Notes under the pieces: generated by a model
Told to the model about the DNA's origin: nothing
The model's input: the letters and a program-made list of their open reading frames with translations, nothing else
The model's database searches: none
Source: Candidatus Vecturithrix granuli
GTDB taxonomy: Bacteria > Moduliflexota > Moduliflexia > Moduliflexales > Moduliflexaceae
Assembly: GCA_000739535.1 (NCBI GenBank)
Contig: DF820470.1
Location: 14,582-78,581 of the forward strand
DNA length: 64,000 nucleotides
Direction of reading: 5' to 3'
Shown here: piece after piece, positions 2,286 to 54,622 of the stretch
Layout of the letters: the number at the start of each line of letters is the position of its first letter
Position numbering within the stretch: position 1 is the first letter of the stretch
Translations under genes and position numbers: made by a program

Positions 2286-2345
2286 AAGAGGTAGGTGAGA
2301 GCAACTGGGTTTTTGACAATAACCTGGTTGCTGGCACGAAAAGTG

Positions 2346-2410
2346 ATGTACCACGAAACTCCAGTTTCGCGGCTGTCAACAATGCGCGAAACTGGAGTTT
2401 CGCGCTACAG
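2346..2410 (+). repeat. Double-palindrome dispersed repeat, copy 1
   Basis: Two near-perfect palindromes, ACGAAACTCCAGTTTCGCG and CGCGAAACTGGAGTTTCGCG, are separated by CTGTCAACAATG and flanked by TGTA/CTACA. The same unit recurs at 27,907-27,971 (inverted), 54,421-54,487 and 54,539-54,603. It resembles a REP/MITE-like element. It lies just before the flavodiiron gene and ends ~20 bp before that gene's start. Confidence 0.9.
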
Positions 2411-2429
2411 TTTCACAGGAGAACACATT

Positions 2430-12793: not shown

Positions 12794-13852
12794 TTACACC
12801 AACGAAGCTACCAGATCACCGACCTCAGCCGTGCCCATGCCCATCTGTCCGGCCGCCAGGCTGACAATTTTCCCTGATTCCAGGGCGGTGTGTACCGCCA
12901 TATCAATCGCCCGGGCGACGCGCTCTTCTCCCAGGGTTTCCATCATCATACCCCCGGAACAAATCGCCGCCAGCGGATTAATCATATTTTTGCCCGTATA
13001 TTTCGGGGCCGACCCGCCAATCGGTTCAAACATTGACACCCCTTCAGGGTTGATGTTGCCGCCGGCCGCAATGCCCATGCCGCCCTGGATCATCGCGCCG
13101 AGATCCGTGATGATGTCGCCAAACATATTCTCGGTTACGATCACGTCAAACCACTCCGGATTCTTGATCATCCACATGGTCACCGCATCCACATTGGCGT
13201 AATCGTGTTTGATGTTCGGATACTCTTTCCCCACTTCCTCATGCACGCGCATCCACAAATCGCCGCACTCAGTCAACACATTTGTTTTGTGCGCCAGGGT
13301 GAGAGTGTTGCGTTTATTACGCTTTTGGGTGTATTGATAGGCATAACGCTCGCAGCGTTCGACCATTTTGCGCGTATAAAGCATGACCTGCGTGGTCACT
13401 TCATCCGGCGTGCCTTTAGCCACAGTTCCGCCAATCCCCGTGTAAATACTGCCCGTATTTTCCCGAATAATCACAAAATCAATCTCCTGCGGGCCTTTAT
13501 CTTTAATTGGCGTATAAACGTTCGGATAGAGCTTGACCGGACGCAGGTTGATATATTGATCCAGTTCGAACCGGATGGTTAACAGAATCGCCTTTTCCAG
13601 AATCCCCGGTTTCACGTCAGGGTGTCCGATCGCCCCCAAAAAAATGGCGTCGAACTTCCGCAATTCCTCAAGCGCCGAGGCCGGGAGCAACTCACCGGTT
13701 TTCAAATAGCGTGCGCCGCCAAAGTCATAATGGATATATTCCAGTTTTACTCCATACTTCTGACAGGCCGCATCCAGCACTTTTATTCCTTCCCGAATCA
13801 CCTCCGGGCCAGTGCCATCCCCCGGAATCACCGCAATCTTATAACTCTTCAT
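12794..13852 (-). CDS. leuB: 3-isopropylmalate dehydrogenase
   Basis: This 352-aa beta-decarboxylating dehydrogenase oxidises 3-isopropylmalate with NAD+, the third leucine step. Motifs are IAVIPGDGTGPEV at the N-terminus, the substrate Arg region INLRPVKLYP, IIRENTGSIYTGIGG, the metal-binding TENMFGDIITDLGAMIQGGMG and the NAD-site FEPIGGSAPKYTGKN. Related enzymes act on tartrate or malate, but the leuA/ilv surroundings favour LeuB. leuC and leuD are not in the window. It is the first gene of the minus-strand cluster here. Confidence 0.9.
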   Translation of the reverse strand: MKSYKIAVIPGDGTGPEVIREGIKVLDAACQKYGVKLEYIHYDFGGARYLKTGELLPASALEELRKFDAIFLGAIGHPDVKPGILEKAILLTIRFELDQYINLRPVKLYPNVYTPIKDKGPQEIDFVIIRENTGSIYTGIGGTVAKGTPDEVTTQVMLYTRKMVERCERYAYQYTQKRNKRNTLTLAHKTNVLTECGDLWMRVHEEVGKEYPNIKHDYANVDAVTMWMIKNPEWFDVIVTENMFGDIITDLGAMIQGGMGIAAGGNINPEGVSMFEPIGGSAPKYTGKNMINPLAAICSGGMMMETLGEERVARAIDMAVHTALESGKIVSLAAGQMGMGTAEVGDLVASLV

Positions 13853-14274
13853 CTATAACCTCCTTTGAAACTACAGGGATTTTGTGTAGGGAGGATTGAA
13901 TTTCACTGCTCCTCGAATCCATCCTTCCTACATGAAATCCATGTAGTTTTATTATATCAAGCGAACAGACACTCATGCCAACTCCTTTTAAAAAGAGAGT
14001 TTGTGAAACGGCCATTCGAAGCTTGTCAAGCATTATTTTGATTTTCGCAACGAAAGGCTTGACGAAAACAAAAAACAAGCGTACATATAGCAATCCTACA
14101 TGATTCGTGTCTCGACTTCGCTCGACAACCGCCCGGTCACTGAGCGAAGTCGAAGTGACATGTGACAAATGATTTAGGATTGCTATAATTTAAAAGGATT
14201 GATTTGAAGAAACGCGAACAACAGCTTTATTCCCAACCGATGCCCTTTGTACTCTGGTTGAATGAAAGGTTCTT
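13853..14274. other. Intergenic region with palindromic repeats
   Basis: The divergent spacer between leuB and csx20 holds no gene. A hairpin-like GTAGGGAGGATTGA / ATCCATCCTTCCTAC pair lies at about 13,887-13,931. A TTGACA on the minus strand near 14,028-14,033, ~175 bp before leuB, could be part of the leuB promoter. The 14,086-14,187 inverted-repeat element is listed separately. Confidence 0.6.
14086..14187. repeat. MITE-like element with TATAGCAATCCTA ends
   Basis: TATAGCAATCCTA (14086-14098) and its exact reverse complement TAGGATTGCTATA (14175-14187) bound a 102-bp unit. Its centre contains a second palindrome (CGACTTCGCTCGAC / CTGAGCGAAGTCG). A similar GAGCGAAGTCG/CGACTTCGCTC pair recurs near 14,855-14,905. 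Confidence 0.85.
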
Positions 14275-26609: not shown

Positions 26610-26635
26610 TGGGAAAAAACAATGCAAACACAACA

Positions 26636-26697
26636 CCGGATTGGAAGAAACGCAGGCTGAAATTATCCGAGGATTCCCAGAATCCGCTGTTGTCCCT
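26636..26697. repeat. Partial GGAT...ATCCGCTGTTGTC repeat
   Basis: This is a lone, shortened member of the GxxExxY-associated family: CACCGGATTGG, then TTATCCGAGGATTCCCAGAA and TCCGCTGTTGTCCC. The 5' half is missing. Confidence 0.8.
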
Positions 26698-26757
26698 CTT
26701 TCTCCGAAGATCGCGGGACTCCACGGTGGTCATCTCAAAAGGGGTGTGCCCTGCCTC

Positions 26758-26871
26758 CTGGCGATCAATCGCCAGTCTCAAAGCGAAAGGACGCTGAAGC
26801 GCCCTGCGAACTTGATCAGCGGGCTTGAGCCTGCTTCAGCTTTGAGACCGGCCATTTATGGCTGGGCGAAC
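26758..26871 (+). repeat. 114-nt coding palindrome, copy A (at broken cas1 edge)
   Basis: It begins CTGGCGATCAATCGCCAGTC and ends GCCATTTATGGCTGGGCGAA C. Internal arms pair (CAAAGCGAAAGGACGCTGAA against TTCAGC...TTTGAG). It is the same length (114 nt) as copy B at 52,886-52,999, with about ten visible base differences. In the cas1 frame it reads GDQSPVSKRKDAEAPCELDQ, then RA, a TGA stop, then ACFSFETGHLWLGE. Copy B has the same frame but TCA at the stop position. Confidence 0.92.
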
Positions 26872-27533
26872 TTGTCCGCAAAGCCCGCAAGAAAGAGCAG
26901 CCGACACTGAAAAAGGCGATTGACCGCATCAAAGCGGCCGAACGCAGCGCCAAAGCGGCGACCACGCTCGATACGGTGCGCGGTCATGAAGGCGAAGGCT
27001 TGGCTGCCTATTTTTCCGTGTTGAACGAACTCCTGACATCCTCCGGAAAAACACAGGATGGCTTTACCTTTGAAAAACGGGTGCGCCGTCCGCCTAAAGA
27101 CCCGATTAACGCCCTGCTCAGTTTCGGTTATACCTTGCTGACTAACGACCTGATGACGGCTGTCAATATTGTCGGGTTCGATCCCTACATCGGCTATCTG
27201 CACGCGGAAAAATACGGACGCCCTGCGTTAGCTCTGGATTTGATGGAAGAATTCCGGCCCCTGATTGTTGACGCCATGGTGCTGGCCTGCGTGAATAAGA
27301 GAATCCTGACCAGGGCACACTTCATCGCCACCGAAGCCGAAACGTACCGGCTGACCGACGATGGCCGGCGTATTTTTCTGGAACAATATGAAGTGCGCCG
27401 CAAAACCGAATTTACCCATGCCCATCTGAATTGTAAAATCACGTATCAGCGCGCCTTCGAGGAACAGGCGCGCGTGTTAGGAAGAGTGCTGCAAGGCGAA
27501 TTGCCTGAATATTTGCCGGTTTTGATGAAGTAG
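26872..27533 (+). pseudogene. cas1: Cas1, N-terminally truncated
   Basis: The frame continuing from the palindrome encodes the C-terminal helical domain of Cas1. It has TLDTVRGHEGEGLAAYFSVL (metal-binding Glu), PINALLSFGYTLLTNDLMTA, GFDPYIGYLHAEKYGRPALA (His) and LDLMEEFRPLIVDAM (acidic ligand). All three integrase ligands are present, but the N-terminal beta-domain (roughly the first 120 residues of a ~330-aa protein) is absent and is replaced by the dispersed element with an in-frame TGA. The first internal start is GTG/ATG near 26976, which would give 185 aa. This cannot build the normal Cas1 dimer, so I call it inactive. A reverse-transcriptase fusion upstream cannot be excluded as its original form. 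Confidence 0.88.
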
Positions 27534-27623: not shown

Positions 27624-27808
27624 GGGTAGTGGTTAAGTGGTAAGTGATGGGGGCGGAACATTGTCCAGGAGACAGGAGTGCGATGAGGTTATCGCCTCAG
27701 GGCAATGCCCTGACAGGCGCGGCATCGGAGATGCCGATACGACGACCGCGTCGCACTCCTGATCGCACCGTTGTCAAGGAGACATCACTTACCATTTAAC
27801 CACTACCC
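27624..27808. repeat. MITE-like element with 26-bp terminal inverted repeats
   Basis: GGGTAGTGGTTAAGTGGTAA GTGATG at the left and CATCACTTACCATTTAACCA CTACCC at the right are complementary at 25 of 26 positions. They enclose ~130 bp with more palindromes (CAGGGCAATGCCCTG; GGCATCGGAGATGCC; GTGCGA/TCGCAC arms). The flanks carry GTGTTTGAGTGTTTCAG (27,549-27,566) and CTGAAACACTGAAACAC (27,864-27,880), a second, outer inverted pair. It lies between cas1 and cas2 remnants. Confidence 0.85.
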
Positions 27809-27881
27809 GAATAAGAACAGGAAGATCACATTAATGTGTTGTTTCCTTCAATACAGCCAAACACTGAAACACTGAAACACT

Positions 27882-28274
27882 ATGTACATCGTCATCTCCT
27901 TTGAAAATGTAGCGCGAAACTCTAGTTTCGCGCATTGTTGACAGCCGCGAAACTGGAGTTTCGCGCTACATCTCATTTTCATGATGACGGGTGAGCCGGA
28001 GGCTCATGATAGCTCCTATGATATTAAGAACGACCAGCGCCGCACCAAAATTCACGATTTGCTCAAGAATTACGGTGAACGCATTCAATACAGCGTGTTC
28101 GAATGCGAGCTGAACCGTAAAGAGTACCAGCAATTGCGCGACGCCTTAGACCCATTGATTGATGTGGAAGAGACCGACAGCGTCCGCTTTTATCGTTTGT
28201 GCCGGGAATGCCGGAGCAAGCTCGAACACGTGGGCGGACGCAGCGCCAGAGACAACACGGCGATTATCATTTAA
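27882..28274 (+). pseudogene. cas2: Cas2 interrupted by a palindromic insertion
   Basis: ATG at 27882 begins MYIVIS, the first strand of Cas2. The frame resumes at 28,014 with SYDIKNDQRRTKIHDLLKNY, then GERIQYSVFECELNRKEYQQ and SVRFYRLCRECRSKLEHVGG, a complete Cas2 body including the catalytic Asp region. Between them lie 117 bp (39 codons) with an in-frame TGA after SFAHC. CTCCT flanks the insert on both sides (27,896-27,900 and 28,013-28,017), suggesting a 5-bp target duplication. Re-initiation at ATG 27981 would replace the first beta strand with foreign sequence, so function is doubtful. Confidence 0.88.
27901..28017. mobile_element. Composite palindromic element inserted in cas2 (copy 2)
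   Basis: It contains the double palindrome (27,907-27,971: GCGCGAAACTCTAGTTTCGC and CCGCGAAACTGGAGTTTCGC) in the opposite orientation to the other copies. It continues with TCATTTTCATGATGACGGGT and GAGCCGGAGGCTCATGATAG. The latter part is the reverse complement of sequence that precedes copy 4 at 54,503-54,538, so the moving unit is the double palindrome plus this third hairpin. Flanking CTCCT repeats support recent insertion. Confidence 0.8.
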
Positions 28275-28957
28275 GGAACGACAAAGCAGCATTAGACATG
28301 ATCGAAAATAGAACACTAATGGAACTGATTGAACTGATCTCCACTGATTTATCGAGAAGCGTGACGTGTGCTCCATGCTGTTCTTATGAGCATGAACCGT
28401 GCCCTGAATTCATCGTCATATCAGCGAGCATCAGCCCAGGCAGTTCCATCAGCCTTCTATTTCCGATCACCTCTATTGAATCCCGGCAAGATTTTCCGGG
28501 AACGATCAAAAAAAATCCAAAAACACAAGATGAGCAAAGATTTTCTTGACAAAATATCATTGTTGAGCGATATAAAATACACAGTGTAACGATGAAAAAC
28601 GGTGAGATTGTGAAAAAGTTACACGAAGCTGTGAATACAGGGTATTCGAGGTTGTATCCTTGTATGCGAAATCTCTAAACCCTGGAAACAGTATGAGTTA
28701 CAAGATTTTTCCGACAGGTGGGGGGTCTTCTAATTCACTTTTTCACAATGTGCCTCTAACTGTTTATTTTATAAGCACTTACGATGAATTTCATAAAAAG
28801 AGGTTGTCGGAAACCTGTAACCTTTGCAATCATAACAAGTTAGGTGATTTTCAATGACACGAAAAATGAAAAAACGACAGAATTTTTGCTCCAAAATCGG
28901 CACCTGTCGGAAATGGGGGTCTAAGTTATTGAATTTAGATGGGTTGCAGAGGGGTGA
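28275..28957 (+). promoter_or_regulatory. CRISPR leader region
   Basis: This 683-bp, AT-rich stretch lies between cas2 and the first repeat and has no convincing gene. It holds a perfect 13-bp inverted pair, TTTCCGACAGGTG (28,708-28,720) and CACCTGTCGGAAA (28,901-28,913), plus near-repeats of GGGGGTCTTCTAA and GGGGGTCTAAGTT beside each arm. The last 45 bp before the first repeat are the expected site for integration signals. Leader assignment rests on position, strand of the cas genes and repeat orientation. Confidence 0.7.
28546..28576 (+). promoter_or_regulatory. Candidate CRISPR array promoter
   Basis: TTGACA (28546-28551) and TATAAA (28571-28576) are separated by 19 bp, or 17-18 bp if the second hexamer is read as GATATA/ATATAA. 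It points into the array and lies ~380 bp before the first repeat. A plausible sigma-70 promoter for the pre-crRNA, based on sequence only. Confidence 0.5.
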
Positions 28958-31900
28958 GTAGAAACGCGGAATAATCCCTGGAAGGGTTTGAAACTCTCTT
29001 TTTTTCATTGGCTGGCCTCCGCGGGGGTGAGTAGAAACGCGGAATAATCCCTGGAAGGGTTTGAAACCTCTAAGATGTCGGCAATCGCGGCCTGGATGCG
29101 ATCCGTAGAAACGCGGAATAATCCCTGGAAGGGTTTGAAACGATCCCGGCAGGACCCATTGGAAACTCGTGTCGTTCGTAGAAACGCGGAATAATCCCTG
29201 GAAGGGTTTGAAACAATACCACCTCACTGGCATCGTACAGGATCATCAGTTGTAGAAACGCGGAATAATCCCTGGAAGGGTTTGAAACAAAAGGGTCGAC
29301 CGCATAAACCAGGAACAGTCCAATCGGTAGAAACGCGGAATAATCCCTGGAAGGGTTTGAAACGCTTGGTTTCCATTCCAGAATGACACACGCTCCGCCA
29401 AGTAGAAACGCGGAATAATCCCTGGAAGGGTTTGAAACTCACGGCTTCGTTCCCGACGAGGTCAAAGTTGCACCCCGTAGAAACGCGGAATAATCCCTGG
29501 AAGGGTTTGAAACACGTAGAAGAGAGAAGGCGACAACAACAAGTCGTGGTTGTGTAGAAACGCGGAATAATCCCTGGAAGGGTTTGAAACGGAGAAACGA
29601 AAAAGGAAGGGCCAAAAAGAGAAGAAGTAGAAACGCGGAATAATCCCTGGAAGGGTTTGAAACTGTACGTCGCGCTGAACGGATGGTGGTTCGTGCAATA
29701 CGTAGAAACGCGGAATAATCCCTGGAAGGGTTTGAAACCGGGTCGCTGTAAAGTTGTGCAAACTTTTTCGTTTCGTAGAAACGCGGAATAATCCCTGGAA
29801 GGGTTTGAAACGTCCACGCCATCATCGTGATTCCAGGGATTTTTGCTGCGTAGAAACGCGGAATAATCCCTGGAAGGGTTTGAAACTTTACAAGGAACCT
29901 GATTGAGACGTCCGAGGCCAAAAAGTAGAAACGCGGAATAATCCCTGGAAGGGTTTGAAACTACTTCGTTCCCGCCTTCATCTGCCGTGCAGAGTCAGGT
30001 AGAAACGCGGAATAATCCCTGGAAGGGTTTGAAACTTTATACTGATTTTCAGCAGGCTTCCATAATGCTTCGAGTAGAAACGCGGAATAATCCCTGGAAG
30101 GGTTTGAAACCTTCTACATCAGTGAAAGATTCTTCCCCTGTCTCAAGGTAGAAACGCGGAATAATCCCTGGAAGGGTTTGAAACGGGTTAAATTGTAGTC
30201 GTCACGAATAAGCATACCGCGTAGAAACGCGGAATAATCCCTGGAAGGGTTTGAAACGAGTCAAGTGGATTAACCACCGTAACATCCTAAAAGAAGTAGA
30301 AACGCGGAATAATCCCTGGAAGGGTTTGAAACAACTAAATTGGTATAGGAGAGAGTAGAGGAACATGTGTAGAAACGCGGAATAATCCCTGGAAGGGTTT
30401 GAAACAATATAAAAATAACACACCTCATACTCTTCCTATACCGTAGAAACGCGGAATAATCCCTGGAAGGGTTTGAAACTACTCTTCCTATACCTTTGAA
30501 AAAAGGACCCTGCAGCGTAGAAACGCGGAATAATCCCTGGAAGGGTTTGAAACGACGCGGGGTATCATCGATATACCCGCATCTGGAAATAGTAGAAACG
30601 CGGAATAATCCCTGGAAGGGTTTGAAACGACAGATTCCGTTTATCGAAGCCGCCCTTTCTCGCCCCGTAGAAACGCGGAATAATCCCTGGAAGGGTTTGA
30701 AACAATTACGTTTGCTGATATGAATGATAGAACTTCTTACGTAGAAACGCGGAATAATCCCTGGAAGGGTTTGAAACAATAATCCGTAACGGGGCAGGTG
30801 CAAAATAAAAGCGAAGTAGAAACGCGGAATAATCCCTGGAAGGGTTTGAAACGCAACACAGCAATCTGTGTTGGATATGTTGATATACTGTAGAAACGCG
30901 GAATAATCCCTGGAAGGGTTTGAAACCATAGTGTTTTTCCTCCTGGAAAATGTTGGTGTTATGTGTAGAAACGCGGAATAATCCCTGGAAGGGTTTGAAA
31001 CTACATCTTTCTTATCTCTCTCTTAAACGCTAAGTCAGGTAGAAACGCGGAATAATCCCTGGAAGGGTTTGAAACATTTGTCGTCAGGTAGCACATAGAC
31101 GTCTACGGTTAATGTAGAAACGCGGAATAATCCCTGGAAGGGTTTGAAACTTACCCCTTGAGGATCGCCTTCTGGTGGATTCTTCCACCGTAGAAACGCG
31201 GAATAATCCCTGGAAGGGTTTGAAACACGAGTAAGCTGATTTACAGGGTTTTAATGAGGAGTGGTAGAAACGCGGAATAATCCCTGGAAGGGTTTGAAAC
31301 GCAATGTCGCCCTTCTCGGCCACGGTCAATTCGAAGTGTAGAAACGCGGAATAATCCCTGGAAGGGTTTGAAACTGACGGGACCTTTTCGAAGGTGCCCC
31401 GTTTCCCGAAAAGTAGAAACGCGGAATAATCCCTGGAAGGGTTTGAAACTGCCAGCCTAGCAGCGTAATAAATCAGCAATTTCATCGTAGAAACGCGGAA
31501 TAATCCCTGGAAGGGTTTGAAACATGAAGGTATGATTGATATCACCTGTACACTCACCGCAGAGTAGAAACGCGGAATAATCCCTGGAAGGGTTTGAAAC
31601 TGAACATCTTTCAGCATCATTTCAATTTCACGTTTTTGTAGAAACGCGGAATAATCCCTGGAAGGGTTTGAAACAATCTGAACTTTCAGAAGGTTCATGG
31701 CAGAGCTGGGGTCGTAGAAACGCGGAATAATCCCTGGAAGGGTTTGAAACGCGATGTCAATAAGCTCGGATGCAAAAGCTCCTGTCTGGGTAGAAACGCG
31801 GAATAATCCCTGGAAGGGTTTGAAACTGTATGTGAATACTGTCAGGGTGGAGGACAATTCAATCAGTAGAAACGCGGAATAATCCCTGGAAGGGTTTGAA

Positions 31901-34900
31901 ACCAAAGCACTAATGCGATGCCAGCGACAATCCCAGCTATGTAGAAACGCGGAATAATCCCTGGAAGGGTTTGAAACAGTCAGAGATAGTGCGAATAACT
32001 TCTTTACAGTGCCGAGTAGAAACGCGGAATAATCCCTGGAAGGGTTTGAAACTCGAGTCCGCACGACGGATACCGTAGATTAGATATTCGTAGAAACGCG
32101 GAATAATCCCTGGAAGGGTTTGAAACAGGCTCTTATTGTACTCCACGCTCCCATGATAGGAGCAAGTAGAAACGCGGAATAATCCCTGGAAGGGTTTGAA
32201 ACGGTCTCTAGCGTGGCAGGCGGTTGAGCGGCCACGGTTTGTAGAAACGCGGAATAATCCCTGGAAGGGTTTGAAACATATATGATGTGTTAGTTTCTGG
32301 GTTTTATCGTTAACGTAGAAACGCGGAATAATCCCTGGAAGGGTTTGAAACCGACTGGTCAATCAACGTCATTCAAAAGAAACCATGGGAGTAGAAACGC
32401 GGAATAATCCCTGGAAGGGTTTGAAACATATGTAGCATAGATGGGTTTTTTCTCCGTTATTGGCGTAGAAACGCGGAATAATCCCTGGAAGGGTTTGAAA
32501 CAAGAGGTTATCGTGAAAATTGCGATTTGGATTACCCAGGTAGAAACGCGGAATAATCCCTGGAAGGGTTTGAAACTTTTATGTGATATGTGCAGCCCAA
32601 CGCATGAAGCATCCGTAGAAACGCGGAATAATCCCTGGAAGGGTTTGAAACCCATTGCTGACGAAGCGACGAATGCGGTGATATGTGCAGTAGAAACGCG
32701 GAATAATCCCTGGAAGGGTTTGAAACCATATACTCTCCTCTGTGAAATTTTTCACAATCGTTTAGTAGAAACGCGGAATAATCCCTGGAAGGGTTTGAAA
32801 CAACTTTCAAGCAGGCTTGATACGCCTCATCGCACGTTTGTAGAAACGCGGAATAATCCCTGGAAGGGTTTGAAACGAAAATCTCATGCAAAAAGAAAAG
32901 TTTTTGCATTCTTCGTAGAAACGCGGAATAATCCCTGGAAGGGTTTGAAACGTAGATCGCCATTTTTGCCATAGCGTCTCCAGTTGGCAGTAGAAACGCG
33001 GAATAATCCCTGGAAGGGTTTGAAACGTGGATTTTGAAGATTATGAAATTCCTGTGAAATCAGGTAGAAACGCGGAATAATCCCTGGAAGGGTTTGAAAC
33101 TTTTCATAGTTGTTCTCCTTGTTGTGTTTGTGATATTGTAGAAACGCGGAATAATCCCTGGAAGGGTTTGAAACGGACATTGTAAACTCTGCCACCTGGA
33201 ACCTGTTTAAATGTAGAAACGCGGAATAATCCCTGGAAGGGTTTGAAACAAAAGGGTTTGGGATCATCAATCGTTACCCAATAAAGTAGAAACGCGGAAT
33301 AATCCCTGGAAGGGTTTGAAACAGGTCCGCGCCTGATAACAACGCGCGAATGCGAATGGCGTAGAAACGCGGAATAATCCCTGGAAGGGTTTGAAACTAT
33401 CCTGAGATTATCACCATCCTGGAATGACCTAGTGGGTAGAAACGCGGAATAATCCCTGGAAGGGTTTGAAACTTCAATCACGTGGAAGTAATCAGCTAAA
33501 GCTATAGGATGTAGAAACGCGGAATAATCCCTGGAAGGGTTTGAAACGTCCTGATTGTATACTCATGTTCTTTTTCATTTAGGGGGTAGAAACGCGGAAT
33601 AATCCCTGGAAGGGTTTGAAACTATCAATTCTTTTCTCACGAAAGGAGGTGAGAAAAAGTAGAAACGCGGAATAATCCCTGGAAGGGTTTGAAACTAAGC
33701 CTCACATGGTTTTTTTGGAGAGCCTGGCTATGAGTAGAAACGCGGAATAATCCCTGGAAGGGTTTGAAACAGCGGAGTACATTGCGCGTTACCCAAAATA
33801 CCGGTCAGTAGAAACGCGGAATAATCCCTGGAAGGGTTTGAAACTCGCCGGTAAGAGTTTTTCCGGTCAGACCGATAAAAAGTAGAAACGCGGAATAATC
33901 CCTGGAAGGGTTTGAAACTTTCCATCGCCGAGCCCAGCGTCATAGCCAGGCTCTCGTAGAAACGCGGAATAATCCCTGGAAGGGTTTGAAACAATCAACG
34001 GTGAAGTCCAGCTTTTGGCCCACGGGCAGTAGAAACGCGGAATAATCCCTGGAAGGGTTTGAAACTGTAATCTCCGTCAGACAAACAATCTTTGAAGCCG
34101 CCGGTAGAAACGCGGAATAATCCCTGGAAGGGTTTGAAACGCTCCATGTGTGAACATTTCCCATCTTTCGGGGAATCCGTAGAAACGCGGAATAATCCCT
34201 GGAAGGGTTTGAAACGAATCACGTAAGCACCGATTGAATCCAAGTCAACTTTGTAGAAACGCGGAATAATCCCTGGAAGGGTTTGAAACGGCGTCGCGAT
34301 CGCGAACAAAAACACTCATAAGATAGGTAGAAACGCGGAATAATCCCTGGAAGGGTTTGAAACCTGAATCTCGTCCGGAGAGGAGCAAGTATCTCCGGGA
34401 GGTAGAAACGCGGAATAATCCCTGGAAGGGTTTGAAACATGTCCTTCTTCTGTTTTGTGCAAGTGTCAACTAAACCGTAGAAACGCGGAATAATCCCTGG
34501 AAGGGTTTGAAACGCAAAGCTGCGGGCGTTAATGCGCTGCTGGAGAATCTTGTAGAAACGCGGAATAATCCCTGGAAGGGTTTGAAACCGTTGGTGTTGG
34601 CGTCGGTGTCGCCGCAGGCGGCTGACTGTAGAAACGCGGAATAATCCCTGGAAGGGTTTGAAACGATAATCATCTGCTGGATGGAATTCAAACACCGGAA
34701 TGGTAGAAACGCGGAATAATCCCTGGAAGGGTTTGAAACCCTATCAGAATCCTTTTTAAGAATCGTGTTAACATGATGTAGAAACGCGGAATAATCCCTG
34801 GAAGGGTTTGAAACGACATTTCCTTCCACTGCCTCGATGACCCATTGTCTCGTAGAAACGCGGAATAATCCCTGGAAGGGTTTGAAACAGGACGATCTTC

Positions 34901-37900
34901 AGCTTCAACTACATAAATGGTACGGGTAGAAACGCGGAATAATCCCTGGAAGGGTTTGAAACGTGTTTCCAGGGCATCCTGTCAAAACTACTGCAGCCAC
35001 GTAGAAACGCGGAATAATCCCTGGAAGGGTTTGAAACGTGGTATTCCACGTTGTGTTATAATCAACGACCACGGTAGAAACGCGGAATAATCCCTGGAAG
35101 GGTTTGAAACTTGTGAAAAGAGCTAGCGGTGCTAGCTCTTGATATGAGTAGAAACGCGGAATAATCCCTGGAAGGGTTTGAAACTTATCCTCGTGTTTCT
35201 CGTTTCTGATTCCAAGAAAAATGTAGAAACGCGGAATAATCCCTGGAAGGGTTTGAAACTCGACGACCTGAATGATCTGCCGGGCGGACGGAGCGCGTAG
35301 AAACGCGGAATAATCCCTGGAAGGGTTTGAAACCTACGAATCTTGCTGGATAATGCTGTCTCGCCCCTTGTAGAAACGCGGAATAATCCCTGGAAGGGTT
35401 TGAAACACTCATCAATGCACAATTCAATGTGAACCAACGGGTGTAGTAGAAACGCGGAATAATCCCTGGAAGGGTTTGAAACAGCGATTTCCATTCCGGC
35501 GACGGGAGGAACATCGTCACGTAGAAACGCGGAATAATCCCTGGAAGGGTTTGAAACAATAATATCTATGATGAAAAAAATCAAAAAATATCGCGTAGAA
35601 ACGCGGAATAATCCCTGGAAGGGTTTGAAACAGTTCCCGACAAACAATGCGAACCAGATTTCCTTTGAAGTAGAAACGCGGAATAATCCCTGGAAGGGTT
35701 TGAAACTTCTTCATAACAATTCTCCTACAAAAGGATAGATAGATGTAGAAACGCGGAATAATCCCTGGAAGGGTTTGAAACCGTTGGACATCGGTTCGCG
35801 CTCTCGCCGGCCGCTTGGGTAGAAACGCGGAATAATCCCTGGAAGGGTTTGAAACGAACCATACGTCATCCTCTACGGATTTGTCAACGTATGGTAGAAA
35901 CGCGGAATAATCCCTGGAAGGGTTTGAAACCTTCGTAGCTGCACCACTGCAAGCCATACGGTCCCCAGTAGAAACGCGGAATAATCCCTGGAAGGGTTTG
36001 AAACACTAATATCCCCCAAAGGAAGGGATACAGGACAGTTGCGTAGAAACGCGGAATAATCCCTGGAAGGGTTTGAAACTATTCAGTAAGTCAACAAACC
36101 GTTTATCCAGTGCGTCGTAGAAACGCGGAATAATCCCTGGAAGGGTTTGAAACTATTGGCAATTGCATACTTGTTAAAATCTTCCTGGGTCGTAGAAACG
36201 CGGAATAATCCCTGGAAGGGTTTGAAACCATTTGTATCAACTGCCGCACGATGCCGAGAAGCGTAGAAACGCGGAATAATCCCTGGAAGGGTTTGAAACA
36301 CCGATATATGGTCGTGTGTCTCGTGGTGCTGCTGGTCGTAGAAACGCGGAATAATCCCTGGAAGGGTTTGAAACACTCTTGACGCTGGCCTACGGCACAC
36401 GCGAAACGATGGTAGAAACGCGGAATAATCCCTGGAAGGGTTTGAAACTCTCCGACTCACAGCCTGGCGGAATTAGAAAACTATGTAGAAACGCGGAATA
36501 ATCCCTGGAAGGGTTTGAAACAGCGAACCAATAGGTTGGAATAATGGCACATACGACGTAGAAACGCGGAATAATCCCTGGAAGGGTTTGAAACCGCGTA
36601 CTCTGCCGGTCCCTCCTCACTATGTTTTAAGTAGAAACGCGGAATAATCCCTGGAAGGGTTTGAAACTAGCTTCAAAATCAAATCCTCAGGGCTTTCCCC
36701 TACTGGGTAGAAACGCGGAATAATCCCTGGAAGGGTTTGAAACCTATATCTTGCATGAACTTCCATTTTAGCCTCCTGTAGGTAGAAACGCGGAATAATC
36801 CCTGGAAGGGTTTGAAACTATTGTTATCATATACCCTCCGGATCTGCTTCTAAACTGTAGAAACGCGGAATAATCCCTGGAAGGGTTTGAAACATTTCTA
36901 CTTCAGAATTTGAGGACATACTCTTTAACTTTGTAGAAACGCGGAATAATCCCTGGAAGGGTTTGAAACTTCTTCAACGCTCTCCTGGCTGACCAGCTCT
37001 AAGAAGTAGAAACGCGGAATAATCCCTGGAAGGGTTTGAAACCAAATTGGTTCAACCGTCCCAGGCGGTAATGCGGCCTGTAGAAACGCGGAATAATCCC
37101 TGGAAGGGTTTGAAACTATCAGCTTCCGCATACGCGCCATCTGGTTGGGTTTTTGTAGAAACGCGGAATAATCCCTGGAAGGGTTTGAAACTTATCCCGT
37201 CTATACTGTCGGGAGGGTTGATTTCTCGTAGAAACGCGGAATAATCCCTGGAAGGGTTTGAAACTGGCACAAACTCCGTTGAAAAATTTCTTGCACGACG
37301 TAGAAACGCGGAATAATCCCTGGAAGGGTTTGAAACTTTAATGTATGTACGCGATATTGTCCGTTCAGATATTGTAGAAACGCGGAATAATCCCTGGAAG
37401 GGTTTGAAACGATGATAGATAATAACCCAAGCGTCTTGGTCGTCCAAAGTAGAAACGCGGAATAATCCCTGGAAGGGTTTGAAACGGATACCCAACAATG
37501 CCGACAAGATAGGGGCGGTAACGTAGAAACGCGGAATAATCCCTGGAAGGGTTTGAAACACATTGTAAGCAGAAACCCCATGAAATTCCCTCGTTTGTAG
37601 AAACGCGGAATAATCCCTGGAAGGGTTTGAAACACAACTCAACAGAAGACACACCATCGCACACAGCCGAGTAGAAACGCGGAATAATCCCTGGAAGGGT
37701 TTGAAACGATTACATAGGTTGCGGCTTCGTCAATGGTTTCATCGGTAGAAACGCGGAATAATCCCTGGAAGGGTTTGAAACGTTTTCTGTTCTTCGCTTC
37801 GGCGTGCGCCCGTCGTGGCGTAGAAACGCGGAATAATCCCTGGAAGGGTTTGAAACAACGGCAGCTATGTGCCAACACGCCTGACCGGGTCGTAGAAACG

Positions 37901-40900
37901 CGGAATAATCCCTGGAAGGGTTTGAAACTCTGGAAAATTCGCTCGTCATCGCGCAGGGGTCGCTGGTAGAAACGCGGAATAATCCCTGGAAGGGTTTGAA
38001 ACTACGCCACGAATTTTTGTTTGTAGCGACGAAAGGGTAGAAACGCGGAATAATCCCTGGAAGGGTTTGAAACGACAATAAGCACAAAATGAAGTTTTCA
38101 GCGGTGCGCAAGGTAGAAACGCGGAATAATCCCTGGAAGGGTTTGAAACGAGTCAATGGGGCGCAACCAGTGCCACAACTCCACTCGTAGAAACGCGGAA
38201 TAATCCCTGGAAGGGTTTGAAACTTAGCCAATATGACCAGTCTCAAGATGTGCGGCGGCGGTAGAAACGCGGAATAATCCCTGGAAGGGTTTGAAACACT
38301 GTCCATAGGTGCGTTTCGTCTGTCGTGCGCGCGTAGAAACGCGGAATAATCCCTGGAAGGGTTTGAAACCCGGCCTGGTTACTTGCCTCCAAGCAGGAGT
38401 TTTTGTAGAAACGCGGAATAATCCCTGGAAGGGTTTGAAACTGTATAACCAGCCTGATGAAACTGGAAACCATACAATCGTAGAAACGCGGAATAATCCC
38501 TGGAAGGGTTTGAAACGAATTTATGATGGTGGTTAGGAGGATATTATGGATTGTAGAAACGCGGAATAATCCCTGGAAGGGTTTGAAACGATCCTGTGTC
38601 GCCATATCATGCTCTATCCCTAAAAGTAGAAACGCGGAATAATCCCTGGAAGGGTTTGAAACGGCTTCAACCATTTTGGCATATCCCTGACACACCGCCG
38701 TAGAAACGCGGAATAATCCCTGGAAGGGTTTGAAACTGTTCCTGCTGAACCACCGCCAAAGTCGAAGGAAAAGGTGTAGAAACGCGGAATAATCCCTGGA
38801 AGGGTTTGAAACTACCCATATTTCAATCTGATCATACGGAATCACAATCCGTAGAAACGCGGAATAATCCCTGGAAGGGTTTGAAACCCACACGCGCTTC
38901 GATAAGTTCACTATACTACTTGTGGTAGAAACGCGGAATAATCCCTGGAAGGGTTTGAAACACGTTGCTATTTTTTCTTGATCTGTCATCTTCTCCCCTG
39001 TAGAAACGCGGAATAATCCCTGGAAGGGTTTGAAACTCATATTAGGGAGTTGAATTGATTGAGAAATGTATTTTGTAGAAACGCGGAATAATCCCTGGAA
39101 GGGTTTGAAACAACCCTGTTGAACATACGCTTTCCAAGCTGAATATTTTGTAGAAACGCGGAATAATCCCTGGAAGGGTTTGAAACGAAAAAGAGGGTGA
39201 AACTAACGGCGAGTATATACCATGTAGAAACGCGGAATAATCCCTGGAAGGGTTTGAAACACTTTTGGGGATAGGAGTCCATCGCAGATCGTCGAGTAGA
39301 AACGCGGAATAATCCCTGGAAGGGTTTGAAACTCAAGAAGAGCTTGAATTGATGCTGCAGTCAATTCCATGTAGAAACGCGGAATAATCCCTGGAAGGGT
39401 TTGAAACATGATTACCCTTGTCGAAACGATTATCAGTTCGGCGTAGTAGAAACGCGGAATAATCCCTGGAAGGGTTTGAAACGCTTGTTCCGATTTGCCT
39501 GGCAGCATGGCCTGTCTCACGTAGAAACGCGGAATAATCCCTGGAAGGGTTTGAAACCAGGAAACCATTGCCACCCCCGCTGCTCGCACACAGGTAGAAA
39601 CGCGGAATAATCCCTGGAAGGGTTTGAAACGTACTGCCCGTATAGTCGCTGTCCACGAGCACGATTTGTAGAAACGCGGAATAATCCCTGGAAGGGTTTG
39701 AAACCTGGTGGGTCTGGTTGACTGCTCGGCCGCATTTGACGTAGAAACGCGGAATAATCCCTGGAAGGGTTTGAAACCCTAACAGTGACAAGGGAACAAT
39801 CATATTTCTGAGTTCGTAGAAACGCGGAATAATCCCTGGAAGGGTTTGAAACAAGGGGAAAATATGAAATATGAACGAATTTTCATTCTGTAGAAACGCG
39901 GAATAATCCCTGGAAGGGTTTGAAACAAGCAGATCATGCTCGCCTTTGTGGACGCGCATGGCGTAGAAACGCGGAATAATCCCTGGAAGGGTTTGAAACA
40001 GTATCATTAGTCAGCGATGACACTCCCAATATTGCTGGTAGAAACGCGGAATAATCCCTGGAAGGGTTTGAAACCGCACGGGACTGCAAGTTGCCGTGCC
40101 GGAAGGCTATGAAGTAGAAACGCGGAATAATCCCTGGAAGGGTTTGAAACCAGCGACATCCCATCCTCCCGACGCGCCACCACCGTAGAAACGCGGAATA
40201 ATCCCTGGAAGGGTTTGAAACTTTTCGTAATTTTAATTGTCCGCCTTTTGCCCATTCCGTAGAAACGCGGAATAATCCCTGGAAGGGTTTGAAACCCGAT
40301 TTAACGCCGGAAGAAGTGCGACTCGCCCGCATGTAGAAACGCGGAATAATCCCTGGAAGGGTTTGAAACTGGAAGCCTGGACGCTCTGTCAGGTGGAAAC
40401 GAAATCGGTAGAAACGCGGAATAATCCCTGGAAGGGTTTGAAACGTACCTGTGGTTTTGAGATTGATGCAGACCATAACGGGTAGAAACGCGGAATAATC
40501 CCTGGAAGGGTTTGAAACGTGCGAGTGAATGCAATTTTAGGGAAGAAAGCGAAATGTAGAAACGCGGAATAATCCCTGGAAGGGTTTGAAACAGTTGTAG
40601 GGCGTGCCAATCACATCTCGAAAGAATGTAGAAACGCGGAATAATCCCTGGAAGGGTTTGAAACTTTGGAAGTGATGAGCGAGAAGGACTATCTGCGGTT
40701 TGTAGAAACGCGGAATAATCCCTGGAAGGGTTTGAAACGTTTCGTTTGTTTCTCCCAAAATAAGATGATCTAATCCGTAGAAACGCGGAATAATCCCTGG
40801 AAGGGTTTGAAACACTCCATGAGCGGATTCCATCTGAGATATCGCGAATAGTAGAAACGCGGAATAATCCCTGGAAGGGTTTGAAACCCTAAAGCATTAA

Positions 40901-43900
40901 CTCTATAACCATTTTCTGTCTTTCTGTAGAAACGCGGAATAATCCCTGGAAGGGTTTGAAACCGCCCGCGCCTGGGAATGACTGGTCATCGATGTTGAGT
41001 AGAAACGCGGAATAATCCCTGGAAGGGTTTGAAACAAACTCTTTCTCAATGCACAGAAATTGACGATTCAGTAGAAACGCGGAATAATCCCTGGAAGGGT
41101 TTGAAACGAAACGAAATCGCTGTGTGCGTCTCAGTATGCCACTGTGTAGAAACGCGGAATAATCCCTGGAAGGGTTTGAAACACCGCCTCGCATTCTTGC
41201 AGGGCGGCGAGAAATGCGTAGAAACGCGGAATAATCCCTGGAAGGGTTTGAAACCCGATGAACCCCCATCTGAAGAGACAACGCCATGCGAGTAGAAACG
41301 CGGAATAATCCCTGGAAGGGTTTGAAACTCTGTAATCGGCAGCGTCGCGGTAATCTCCTGGACAGTAGAAACGCGGAATAATCCCTGGAAGGGTTTGAAA
41401 CATTCGTCCCATCCAAACTATACGCTCCGCCAAGTTTCGTAGAAACGCGGAATAATCCCTGGAAGGGTTTGAAACATGTTGATGAATCACAGTGTATCCA
41501 CATATTCTGTGGTAGAAACGCGGAATAATCCCTGGAAGGGTTTGAAACAATGTCACCGCCCCGCCGAATCCCATCACGCGAATGTGTAGAAACGCGGAAT
41601 AATCCCTGGAAGGGTTTGAAACAAAAAATAAGTAGGCGCACAGTAAGCCTAAGCCGCCGTAGAAACGCGGAATAATCCCTGGAAGGGTTTGAAACACGAC
41701 CGCCATGATCTGCGATCCCCATCCAAGCATGACGTAGAAACGCGGAATAATCCCTGGAAGGGTTTGAAACGTCGTCCGCCCACGGGCACAAACAAGTCCG
41801 TTGTGTAGAAACGCGGAATAATCCCTGGAAGGGTTTGAAACTGACAAGCTTGTTCGTGGGGCGGGTATTTTCAACACGGTAGAAACGCGGAATAATCCCT
41901 GGAAGGGTTTGAAACTGGCAAACTCCGGGTGTTTCGCTTTATAGCCGGTATAGTAGAAACGCGGAATAATCCCTGGAAGGGTTTGAAACACTAAAAAACA
42001 AATGGGGATAATCAGGCACCGATAGTAGAAACGCGGAATAATCCCTGGAAGGGTTTGAAACACGAATTATGTTCGAAGGCAGTCCAGCCGAAATTCACGT
42101 AGAAACGCGGAATAATCCCTGGAAGGGTTTGAAACAGCAGATTATGTGAATATCCCAGAGTTCCCGTCTTTGGTAGAAACGCGGAATAATCCCTGGAAGG
42201 GTTTGAAACCGCATGGCTCAAGCCAAGTGATCCGTCCGGGAATTGTAGAAACGCGGAATAATCCCTGGAAGGGTTTGAAACCATCCAGATCGTCGCCAAA
42301 CGTTTTACTGACGGGAAGTAGAAACGCGGAATAATCCCTGGAAGGGTTTGAAACCACAGCATAGACAAGGGAAAAGCCGAAATTGCGGCGCGTAGAAACG
42401 CGGAATAATCCCTGGAAGGGTTTGAAACACATAATGAGAATAGGCATCCATGATGCAGATCGAGTAGAAACGCGGAATAATCCCTGGAAGGGTTTGAAAC
42501 GAGAATCTGCTCACCCGTACCGCCGACGCGCCTGTCTGTAGAAACGCGGAATAATCCCTGGAAGGGTTTGAAACCTGTGCCAATGGTCGCGGCGGCGGCA
42601 AAGGCAGTCAGGTAGAAACGCGGAATAATCCCTGGAAGGGTTTGAAACAAGATCAATTCCCAATCCGCGTCTGTGCGATCCAGGTAGAAACGCGGAATAA
42701 TCCCTGGAAGGGTTTGAAACACATCTACGGCGACAGGAGACGTAGGCGTTCCGGCACGGTAGAAACGCGGAATAATCCCTGGAAGGGTTTGAAACTAAAC
42801 ACGGGATAGAACGAAAACCATTCTGCATGTAAGGTAGAAACGCGGAATAATCCCTGGAAGGGTTTGAAACCATTAACGTTGCACACATTAGAACAGTGGG
42901 CAACGGGTAGAAACGCGGAATAATCCCTGGAAGGGTTTGAAACAATCCTGTTTTCCTTCCTCGGTAAGTTCCCACTTACCGTAGAAACGCGGAATAATCC
43001 CTGGAAGGGTTTGAAACCTTGAAAGACGTTTGGCTGGACACCAGACGTCTTGAGCCGTAGAAACGCGGAATAATCCCTGGAAGGGTTTGAAACAAAAACG
43101 AAAGTCCTAGAACTCCCGTCAGTAAACTGTTGTAGAAACGCGGAATAATCCCTGGAAGGGTTTGAAACTTGATTTTCCAGGACTGCATTGACGACTTTTT
43201 GAATCGTAGAAACGCGGAATAATCCCTGGAAGGGTTTGAAACCATTTCATTTTTTCCTCCAAAAAAATTTTATATTTAAAGTAGAAACGCGGAATAATCC
43301 CTGGAAGGGTTTGAAACTATCCCGCAGATATGCTATACTGCGGTTTCTGGATACGTAGAAACGCGGAATAATCCCTGGAAGGGTTTGAAACTATTGGTAA
43401 CTGCAAAAGCCGGAAATCCCGCTTGCCTGGGTAGAAACGCGGAATAATCCCTGGAAGGGTTTGAAACAATTCGCCGCATAACGTTTTGACACCGACTTCG
43501 CACCGTAGAAACGCGGAATAATCCCTGGAAGGGTTTGAAACCTTCTCAATGGCCGTCGCAGCCGGTATTGACCAGTGTTGTAGAAACGCGGAATAATCCC
43601 TGGAAGGGTTTGAAACAATGTATCGGCGACATTAGCGCTGTTATGTACTGTTACGTAGAAACGCGGAATAATCCCTGGAAGGGTTTGAAACTGGCAGGGT
43701 ACTTGCACATAAATAATCTGCGGCTGTGGTAGAAACGCGGAATAATCCCTGGAAGGGTTTGAAACGACTTTTTATTGCCGTCAACGTAGATCTGTTGGTC
43801 TGGTAGAAACGCGGAATAATCCCTGGAAGGGTTTGAAACACCAGATCGGCAGTTTGTAGGCCCATACAGGGATTTCGTAGAAACGCGGAATAATCCCTGG

Positions 43901-46305
43901 AAGGGTTTGAAACCTTTCCGTGCCCTCCATCTCAGCGGTTTTTACAACGTTCGTAGAAACGCGGAATAATCCCTGGAAGGGTTTGAAACCGGGATGTTAC
44001 CGGTACTCGTACAGTCCTCGCTGTTTGCGTAGAAACGCGGAATAATCCCTGGAAGGGTTTGAAACACTTAGCTCTGACGGGGTCCACTGTGACGAATGGG
44101 CAAGTAGAAACGCGGAATAATCCCTGGAAGGGTTTGAAACACGGTCATCCTCGTTTCCTACACCTTTTTGGGGATTCAGTAGAAACGCGGAATAATCCCT
44201 GGAAGGGTTTGAAACTTCTGTCATCGTTTGCCCATTGTTTCCCTTTTTCTCTTGTAGAAACGCGGAATAATCCCTGGAAGGGTTTGAAACGCTAGAGCTC
44301 TCGTCCAGGTAAAACCAGGGTAGAGATGTAGAAACGCGGAATAATCCCTGGAAGGGTTTGAAACAAAAACAACCACTTCCAACGAAAGGAGTACCAGTAA
44401 GTGTAGAAACGCGGAATAATCCCTGGAAGGGTTTGAAACTTGAAACACGAATCATGTTTCCTTCAATTTTCGCCTCCGTAGAAACGCGGAATAATCCCTG
44501 GAAGGGTTTGAAACTTCGCTTCTTCCGGTAGAATTGTCTGGATTATCAAATTGTAGAAACGCGGAATAATCCCTGGAAGGGTTTGAAACGTGTCAATACC
44601 TCGAATACGAACTTAATTTGCTTTTTGTAGAAACGCGGAATAATCCCTGGAAGGGTTTGAAACGCAAGTTGATCTGGCTATAAAAATTAGGGTCAGATTT
44701 CTGTAGAAACGCGGAATAATCCCTGGAAGGGTTTGAAACGCCGCTATTACTGTAATGAACCGGTGACCCGCTTTAGCGGTAGAAACGCGGAATAATCCCT
44801 GGAAGGGTTTGAAACAGTAGGGTTATGGCATTTCAATAGCAATGCCACGGACAGTAGAAACGCGGAATAATCCCTGGAAGGGTTTGAAACGATTAATTGT
44901 AACCACGATAAAATTTCCCAGGTGAGTAGAAACGCGGAATAATCCCTGGAAGGGTTTGAAACGAGAATCTCAACAGACCGAAGTTCCGCATCGAATCCCG
45001 TAGAAACGCGGAATAATCCCTGGAAGGGTTTGAAACCGAATCCAACGGGAACGTCCAGCCGTCCAATTTCCGCCGTAGAAACGCGGAATAATCCCTGGAA
45101 GGGTTTGAAACTTCCTACTCATCAGTAGGTGACGTTCAGGTCTCGAAGTAGAAACGCGGAATAATCCCTGGAAGGGTTTGAAACCCCTTCTCCATGTGTG
45201 CGGAGAGGATTCCGATTTCTTGTAGAAACGCGGAATAATCCCTGGAAGGGTTTGAAACCTCTACGATCTCCCTGTTTTCAATCCGCCTAATCATCCGTAG
45301 AAACGCGGAATAATCCCTGGAAGGGTTTGAAACCGGACGCCCTCAAGACGAAGTCCCACCTCACTTAGAGTAGAAACGCGGAATAATCCCTGGAAGGGTT
45401 TGAAACTCGATAGATTTTCTTGAATGCGAGTGAGCAATGCCGAGTAGAAACGCGGAATAATCCCTGGAAGGGTTTGAAACTATCTGAGGAGGCGATCAGC
45501 ATGAAACCGAAGCTTATCAGTAGAAACGCGGAATAATCCCTGGAAGGGTTTGAAACGTATCATCCGGCGCCGGTGCAGGCGCCTGAGCGGGAAGGTAGAA
45601 ACGCGGAATAATCCCTGGAAGGGTTTGAAACGATATCCTAACGCGTCCAGGCTGGAATTGTTTCGCGCCGTAGAAACGCGGAATAATCCCTGGAAGGGTT
45701 TGAAACGTATATTTCCGTTATATATACCTATCCCTACAGTCAAGTAGAAACGCGGAATAATCCCTGGAAGGGTTTGAAACATTCTACATTCCGGTATTTC
45801 GGAATGTAGAATTAAATCGTAGAAACGCGGAATAATCCCTGGAAGGGTTTGAAACGAAATTGCTCGGCATTCGGACGTTTAGCCCAACTCTCGGTAGAAA
45901 CGCGGAATAATCCCTGGAAGGGTTTGAAACATTCAGTAGATCAATAGCTTTACTCTCTAGGGCTGTTGGTAGAAACGCGGAATAATCCCTGGAAGGGTTT
46001 GAAACAAACGTATTTTATCCCCGAAAATTTTAATCTGGGGAGGGTAGAAACGCGGAATAATCCCTGGAAGGGTTTGAAACATCTATACCGCTTTCCCAAA
46101 ATGAACTTTAATCCGGCGTAGAAACGCGGAATAATCCCTGGAAGGGTTTGAAACAAGACAGATAGCATCGAACAACCCCGTCAGCAGGCGTGTAGAAACG
46201 CGGAATAATCCCTGGAAGGGTTTGAAACGTCTGCATAGACTTGCCAGAATGTACCCGTTTTAAAGTACGTAGAAACGCGGAATAATCCCTGGAAGGGTTT
46301 GAAAC
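28958..46305 (+). CRISPR. CRISPR array, 234 repeats / 233 spacers
   Basis: The 37-nt repeat starts GTAGAAACGCGGAATAATCC and ends CTGGAAGGGTTTGAAAC. Walking every repeat start by hand gives 234 copies spaced 71-77 bp (spacers 34-40 nt, mean about 37). No degenerate repeat was noticed, including the first and last. CCCT-GGA-AGGG can form a short hairpin, and the 3' end TTTGAAAC resembles the usual 8-nt crRNA 5' tag, so transcription should run left to right, away from the cas genes. The array is longer than the whole cas locus. All open frames inside it are repeat artefacts. The count may be off by one or two. Confidence 0.98.
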
Positions 46306-46488
46306 CAAGGGCTGGCACATTGTGGTGATGATCGGGGCAGGATGACCTGAGACGCTGTGGTGTGAGGAAATTCGTCCGAACGTTGAACTGACTCCGCTTT
46401 TGAGCCTGCTCATTCATCTCATGATTTTGATTGCCCGGAAGAATATTCAAGCGGCCAAACTTCAGGCCGATTTGACTATCAATGTTGC
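46306..46488. other. Spacer between the array end and the chemoreceptor gene
   Basis: No recognisable gene or trailer motif. A plus-strand frame at ~46,361-46,491 reads EEIRPNVELTPLLSLLIHLM, then ILIARKNIQAAKLQADLTIN; it has a stop just before it and no start, so it may be a short remnant of an unknown gene. Confidence 0.4.
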
Positions 46489-54420: not shown

Positions 54421-54603
54421 ATGTACCGCGAAACTCCAGTTTCGCGGCAGTAGCAATGGTGCGCGAAACTGGAATTTTGTGCTACATTTCCATAGGAGTT
54501 GTCATGAGCGTAGGCTCACCCGACGCAATGAAAATCAGATGTACCGCGAAACTCCAGTTTCGCGGCTGTCAACGATGCGCGAAACTGGAGTTTCGCGCTA
54601 CAT
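54421..54603 (+). repeat. Two double-palindrome repeats (copies 3 and 4) with linker hairpin
   Basis: Copy 3 (54,421-54,487, slightly decayed: GGAATTTTGTGCTACAT) and copy 4 (54,539-54,603) are in the same orientation. The linker between them (CATGAGCGTAGGCTCACCCG, then ACGCAATGAAAATCAG) is the counterpart of the third hairpin found in the cas2 insertion. Together they fill the gap between the addB-like gene and the aldo/keto reductase. Confidence 0.9.
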
Positions 54604-54622
54604 TTTCAAAGGAGGAGAATTG

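Follow-up and report, generated by a model that had tools for sequence, protein, structure and literature searches.

Elements of the IS200/IS605 type are inserted at a fixed short target without target duplication, carry subterminal hairpins, and have a cleavage motif carried by the left flank together with the right end. According to the available part of PMC8266576, target choice of this type follows a guide model, and related RAYT enzymes cut at CT or CA, chosen through a GTAG foot; changing this foot alters the RAYT cut sites. A link to Shine-Dalgarno (SD) sequences was not found in the available parts of three papers on REP, RAYT and Rickettsia palindromic elements (PMC3733652, PMC8266576 and PMC3116915), the terms "Shine" and "start codon" being absent from the part of PMC3733652 at hand. 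A description of SD-targeted REP or MITE elements was likewise not found in the literature searched, the scope of which lay mostly outside subscription papers.

The interrupted cas2 gene

The stretch of DNA analysed here, referred to as the window, comprises 64,000 nt of contig DF820470.1 of Candidatus Vecturithrix granuli and contains a CRISPR locus with Cas10/Cmr-type genes, a Card1-like gene and an array of 234 repeats. Reading of the sequence upheld the original prediction that a discrete unit, composed of a double palindrome and a third hairpin, is inserted in the cas2 gene of this locus, with MYIVIS encoded on one side and SYDIKNDQ on the other (Table 1). The two copies of CTCCT that split the gene after MYIVIS are separated by 112 nt, and the 3' fragment, beginning TCCTATGATATTAAGAACGACCAG at 28014, has a reading frame open until the stop at 28272–28274. 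The Pfam Cas2 match is confined to the downstream half, starting at profile position 6, and the genome has two further Cas2 genes, both intact, that span the interruption point as MYLVISYDIKSD and MLTVISYDIKSD, so that the state before insertion is clear at the protein level. A stop codon within the insert ends the cas2 frame and the gene is therefore broken, unless an in-frame ATG within the insert (27981 or 27984) is used, in which case the product would be without the first strand of Cas2. This copy is read here as an unusual intragenic insertion.

Table 1. Coordinates of the interrupted cas2 gene, its inserted element and further copies in the window.
Feature	Position	Strand	Basis
Second copy (main core, no end module recognised), ends in TTTCACAGGAG at SD of gene starting 2430	2339..2421	+	
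Copy with different core and same ends, at SD of minus-strand gene 12794–13852	13860..13986	-	
5' part of interrupted cas2 (MYIVIS; ATGTACATCGTCATCTCC)	27882..27899	+	sequence; intact homologues
CTCCT, left end, read as target (native cas2 codons)	27896..27900	+	sequence, end comparison
Inserted element, 112 nt (117 nt including one CTCCT), sense = AGGAG strand	27901..28012	-	sequence, BLAST
Core palindrome 1, CGCGAAACT..AGTTTCGCG, GTAG before it	27913..27932	.	palindrome count
Core palindrome 2	27946..27965	.	palindrome count
End hairpin TGAGC-CGGAG-GCTCA, common to copies with unrelated cores	27992..28006	.	sequence
CTCCT, right end, read as element-borne	28013..28017	+	sequence, end comparison
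3' part of interrupted cas2	28014..28274	+	sequence, Pfam, intact homologues
Core copy ending TTTCCATAGGAG, next copy directly after (array)	54421..54498	+	
Complete copy (AGGAG to AGGAG), at SD of gene starting about 54623	54494..54614	+	

It should also be noted that the CRISPR array is very large (28943–46400, end approximate) and adjoins a Cmr-type set with broken adaptation genes. Damage is seen in cas1 as well (region 26626–27533), where the Cas1 model is matched over its C-terminal half alone (26976–27533), and this match is preceded by two other palindromic repeats (26626–26711 and 26758–26871), the second of which is 92% like 52886–52999. A different palindromic repeat, GTAGTGGTTAA...TTAACCACTAC, lies directly upstream of cas2 (27629–27809). 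Its relatives are nested in element cores at three loci (L065 ~3213, L082 ~3941 and L128 ~2357), with direct repeats of ~7–12 bp in what looks like true target duplication. Elsewhere, the SD of a second and intact cas2 (G000:C3, L200 ~1485) is immediately adjoined by a related core, the sequence reading TTTCCCAGGAG-ACAAGGCC-ATG.

Copies of the element in the genome

The core palindrome occurs eight times in the window against 0.06 occurrences expected, which excludes chance. A related copy had been noted near 54503–54603, and positions 27896–27997 were indeed found to be complementary to 54513–54614 at 92% over 102 nt, placing the two copies in inverted orientation. BLAST with the element against the genome (8.38 Mb, 21 contigs) listed 101 matches representing about 50 distinct places, because the palindrome also matched on the opposite strand. 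A genome pattern search detected 52 exact joins of the form TTTCANAGGAG-N4-6-ATGAGC and 60 end modules, with no match to the reversed pattern of either. Seventy-seven stretches around pattern matches were then taken together with an unbiased set of 20 stretches of 20 kb at prefixed positions, and a weight matrix from 63 end modules was run over the fetched stretches and the window, giving 153 modules. Complete copies were defined by a far end matched within 265 nt, which excluded 21 modules, and the recurrence of the unit was borne out by the 132 that remained, all with GGAG-type ends. The insert is thus one member of a large hairpin family of this bacterium that is apparently mobile, with roughly 250 far ends in the genome when extrapolated from 12 in the unbiased 400 kb.

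Read on the AGGAG strand, a copy is composed of GGAG-N5-ATGAGC-loop-GCTCACCCG-N5-ATGAA, followed by the core double palindrome, TTTCA-N-R and GGAG (70 copies under the strict pattern). Several mutually unrelated core families bear the same ends. Among the complete copies these were CGCGAAAC (74 copies), CGCGAAATTCC (6), a 145-nt type (13), a 105-nt type (12), a 112-nt type (10), a CCGGACA type (5) and an GTAGTAGCC type (2), with 10 others. An alternative end module, GGAG-TTATTCATTCG...CGAATGAAAA, is also present. The small hairpin is mostly maintained despite variation, the changes being largely one-sided and of the G-C to G-T type with few two-sided, and together with the combinations of ends and cores this indicates that ends and cores behave as modules. 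At one locus (L144 1552) a single core has end modules on both sides in inverted orientation.

A partner at least 95% identical over at least 95% of the length was found for 33 of the 132 copies, array neighbours included. Half-palindromes with no more than one mismatch numbered 393, and the palindromes, high in copy number, are present in inverted pairs. The foot of the palindrome is GTAG or GTAC in the main core and CTAC in some other cores.

Nature of the CTCCT repeat

The CTCCT on either side of the insert had been taken for a target duplication. This interpretation did not hold, as most copies have GGAG/CTCC at either end irrespective of where they are inserted. AGGAG (CTCCT on the other strand) was present at both ends in 79 of the 132 complete copies, and only GGAG is fixed at both. 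The fifth base does not correspond between the two ends of a copy: GGGAG was found at the gene-side end of 13 copies and at the far end of none of these (0/13), and the reverse combination, at the far end and not the gene side, was seen in five. Agreement of the flanking positions between the two ends was within about two standard deviations of that of shuffled pairs. Nor are the outer ends inverted repeats, the end hairpin and CTCC lying on one side and NTGAAA and the core on the other.

Two features of the MITE of a DDE transposon, namely a variable yet pairwise-identical target duplication and terminal inverted repeats at the outer ends, were both lacking, and the end sequences point instead to a short fixed motif as the insertion site, with no duplication. 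It had been asked whether the 5-bp repeat would be met again at the genomic copies. It does recur, but as its sequence is fixed, this recurrence is not proof of duplication. From this comparison the CTCCT repeat is better read as a fixed target or cleavage sequence, as in IS200/IS605-type elements. Fixed GGAG/CTCC ends are the trace of a site-specific element of the single-strand type; after random staggered cutting the repeats would be expected to vary.

Position at Shine-Dalgarno motifs

AGGAG is also a Shine-Dalgarno motif. Of the 132 gene-side ends, 57 were located at the SD of an ORF (4–11 nt before the start codon, with ORFs called by a simple rule), 41 abutted another copy, one lay at a gap and 33 were placed otherwise, a group that takes in the cas2 copy and about seven ends assessed by eye as lying next to further modules. 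Outside arrays, the majority of gene-side ends occupy an SD, and such copies have the motif again at their far side. The spacing between element end and start codon has its mode at 7–8 nt, the usual SD spacing. As a control, the non-coding AGGAG outside elements in the same sequences served as an SD in 176 of 565 cases. Against this the difference was significant both with all other ends counted (57 versus 33; Fisher test, p = 1.1e-8) and with the seven module-abutting ends left out (57 versus 26; p = 1e-10), in stretches that were largely picked for containing copies.

Under one rule, genes adjoined 11 of the 16 far ends in the unbiased stretches and the window, and in the unbiased 400 kb without the window eight such ends were at gene SDs, with 142 GGAG-led genes there by a slightly different counting rule. 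Thirteen of 14 main-core copies in the unbiased stretches and window abut GGAG and the remaining one abuts GGGGAAC, two of the 16 pattern matches having been dropped as non-elements (L135 3614 and L140 8398). In 51 copies outside arrays the outer flank is rich in T from −8 to −5, a bias not shared by 146 ordinary SDs, and A stands at −1 in 42 of 51 cases versus 85 of 146. This means either that the target extends beyond GGAG or that some of these flanks are old degraded copies.

Near-identical AAACCGGGTTTTT...AAAACCCGGTTT hairpins were also seen before SD genes at four loci (L132 12247, L136 4768, L141 761 and L143 16205). These are probably a terminator family, and the ATGAAAAT...TTTACATGG which follows two of them is perhaps a minimal relic of the element described here.

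Candidate enzyme

A Pfam Y1_Tnp search of the genome identified 12 loci, and element ends were found within 1.5 kb of none of them (0/12). An autonomous partner among the Y1 genes was accordingly rejected, none of the 12 bearing the ends. RAYT-type transposases, which had been suggested as worth seeking, are present in the genome. The protein encoded at C13:26145–26768 is RAYT-like, with 73.6 bits for the RAYT model of NCBIfam, and so falls short of the model's cut-off of 80, which two of the other four proteins scanned passed. Nine GTACCGCGAACC palindromes surround the gene at C13:26145, and these REPs are identical to half of the main core of the element at 27 of 30 positions. The GGAG end module is absent from the REPs beside this gene. 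A second RAYT-like gene (L040, G000:C18:825743) reached 94.5 bits, over the cut-off; the CGGAGTGCGAAAGCTCTGC palindromes around it represent a separate REP family.

Comparison with related genomes

This lineage is sparsely sampled, and the genomes compared included one of the same family (G001) and two of the same order (G002 and G003). Over 192 genomes, its own included, the join pattern gave 52 matches in its own genome and one in each of five others, with none in G001–G003, and main-core DNA was absent from G001–G004. Contig scans of other species showed no element loci among the matches listed, from which own-genome records were possibly omitted. Among the genomes sampled the pattern is restricted to this one. 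In samples of SD genes, repeated sequence was found upstream of 29 of 142 in its own genome (G000), 3 of 68 in G001 and 1 of 116 in G003; of the 14 listed among the 29, five represent the main core and the others are mostly terminator-like.

Two orthologous leaders were compared in G001. The dehydrogenase encoded at 12794–13852 of the window has an orthologue there with a protein 85% identical, and its leader keeps the promoter-like AATAATGCTTGACAAG, has no element and has its own GGAGGAG before the ATG, from which it follows that the window element lies between promoter and SD. A gene at locus L130, presumably ClpB-like as named from its first residues, has an orthologue in G001 (74% over 300 aa) with AAGGAGAT before the ATG and no element. 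Both G001 leaders are too diverged to serve as exact empty sites. A BLAST search with the joined flanks of 89 sites, covering the fetched stretches of its own genome, gave no clean empty site, the matches being dominated by neighbouring copies.

Proposed mechanism and alternative explanations

The insert is probably a mobile element of the REPIN kind, non-autonomous and targeted to GGAG/CTCC, that has accumulated at SDs; its movement and the responsible enzyme are inferred. The mobile unit would be a core double palindrome bounded by ATGAA...TTTCA with an end hairpin (TGAGC-loop-GCTCA), then CTCC. Entry is expected to take place at CTCC (GGAG on the opposite strand), and since the element's own end also has CTCC, CTCC(T) would appear on both sides with no true target duplication. 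Where GGAG is an SD, the element would come to lie directly upstream, with SD and start codon intact and the 5' leader longer. With the GGAG that it bears, its outer end would become a target in turn, and same-orientation arrays could grow. In cas2 the CTCC target would have been part of the coding sequence, and insertion there disrupted the gene. As in IS200/IS605 and RAYT systems, a single-strand HUH/tyrosine transposase may recognise the hairpins and cut at CT in CTCC; CTCC contains CT, and the analogy with RAYT cutting fits, though it falls short of proof. The RAYT-like gene at G000:C13:26145 is the best candidate. Several observations weigh against this reading, namely the 33 of 132 gene-side ends that are neither at an SD nor in an array recognised by the script, the cores without a GTAG foot on the presumed strand, the lack of element ends at the 12 Y1 loci, the score of the candidate protein below the cut-off, the neighbouring REPs devoid of the GGAG module, and the failure to find a nucleotide-level empty site in the genome.

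As to why SDs are favoured, there is close to an even chance that the enzyme needs CTCC alone and does not seek SDs; their enrichment would then reflect the loss of insertions at other places or the harm these do to genes, those before an SD being near harmless. The fixation of GGAG alone at both ends agrees with this, as do the copy within cas2 and others at non-SD places. Against it, SDs are about twofold enriched even among non-coding AGGAG, where little harm is expected (57/90 versus 176/565), and the outer flanks are T-rich, some of these maybe being degraded copies. The enrichment at non-coding GGAG sites leans towards some SD preference, although the stretches were for the most part picked for their copies and the ORF calls were simple. 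It is more tentatively suggested that the SD motif is itself the integration specificity. The transposase would then be drawn to ribosome-binding sites, recognised as GGAG with T-rich sequence on the 5' side, and insertion immediately before them would leave a functional SD, place a second SD-ATG at the outer end and allow the element to settle in leaders while the gene survives. If true, this would represent a safe-harbour strategy in which a translation signal takes the place of tRNA genes or terminators.

It is unlikely that the elements are cis-regulatory 5' leader modules under selection, such as a coupled mini-ORF (AGGAG-N5-ATGAGC) or an SD-exposing structure. Their position at SDs with the usual spacing would suit such a role, the outer end resembles an SD plus ATG, and frames from the outer ATG are open to the end in 39 of 119 cases against 17 expected by shuffling. 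However, the third codon is already a stop in 29 of the 119, and a second frame is open in almost as many cases (36), so that there is no coding signal; on these grounds the idea of a translated upstream ORF with coupling to the gene, for which two window copies had been striking examples, was dropped. Folding of 63 element-led and 86 other genes gave SD unpaired values of 0.46 versus 0.40 (p = 0.10), and altered SD exposure was set aside for want of a significant difference. Copies also break cas2 and occupy non-SD sites, and no Rfam family was above threshold at the element, all matches there being sub-threshold; one 16S fragment was recorded by Rfam in the window.

It is quite unlikely that, instead of transposing, the copies were passed from one existing leader to another by recombination or template switching. 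Cores and end modules do look interchangeable and arrays are common (41/132), but the exact GGAG boundaries amid unrelated flanks, the clean insertion in cas2 and the near-identical copies at separate sites all argue against it. Finally, the earlier reading, in which a DDE transposase with a 5-bp target duplication mobilises a classic MITE, is very improbable: the cas2 site by itself would fit, with its precise insertion and CTCCT on both sides, and the nested repeat family described above does have longer direct repeats (L065, L082, L128), but the repeat sequence is identical at most sites, gene-side GGGAG is never matched at the far end, flank agreement is about that of shuffled pairs and the outer ends are not inverted repeats of one another.

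For the REPIN-like element proposed here, the simplest view is that of a mobile element tolerated in leaders. Mobile elements often settle at harmless sites, and the harbour in this case seems to be the ribosome-binding site, where, as GGAG is common to target and element end, the translation start is formally intact after insertion while ~105–145 nt of hairpins are added to the leader. If confirmed, it would become testable how single-strand transposition is drawn to an SD and how such leaders alter expression.

Comparison with known systems

Rickettsia palindromic elements (RPE) are also palindromic and able to enter coding genes, but according to the available part of PMC3733652 they are in-frame inserts, whereas the cas2 insert stops the frame, and most other resolved copies here are upstream of genes. 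BIMEs, or mosaic REP arrays, share palindromes in modular head-to-tail arrays, while in the arrays found here GGAG forms the junctions and most arrays lead up to the SD of a gene. IS200/IS605 elements and their non-autonomous derivatives are similar in the fixed short target, the missing duplication, the subterminal hairpins and a cleavage motif at left flank and right end; they differ in that no transposase gene with the element's ends was found here (0/12 Y1 loci), and the CTCC target and guide pairing are putative. REPINs, or REP doublets with RAYT (TnpAREP), have two inverted REP-like palindromes (available part of PMC3116915) as does this element, with GTAG/GTAC feet in its main core. It is further alike in its hundreds of mostly extragenic copies, and its putative counterpart to a cognate RAYT is the RAYT-like gene, below the cut-off, amid REPs 27/30 identical to its half-core. 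The element is distinct from REPINs in its fixed GGAG/CTCC outer ends and extra end hairpin, and in having several unrelated cores with the same ends, seated at SDs.
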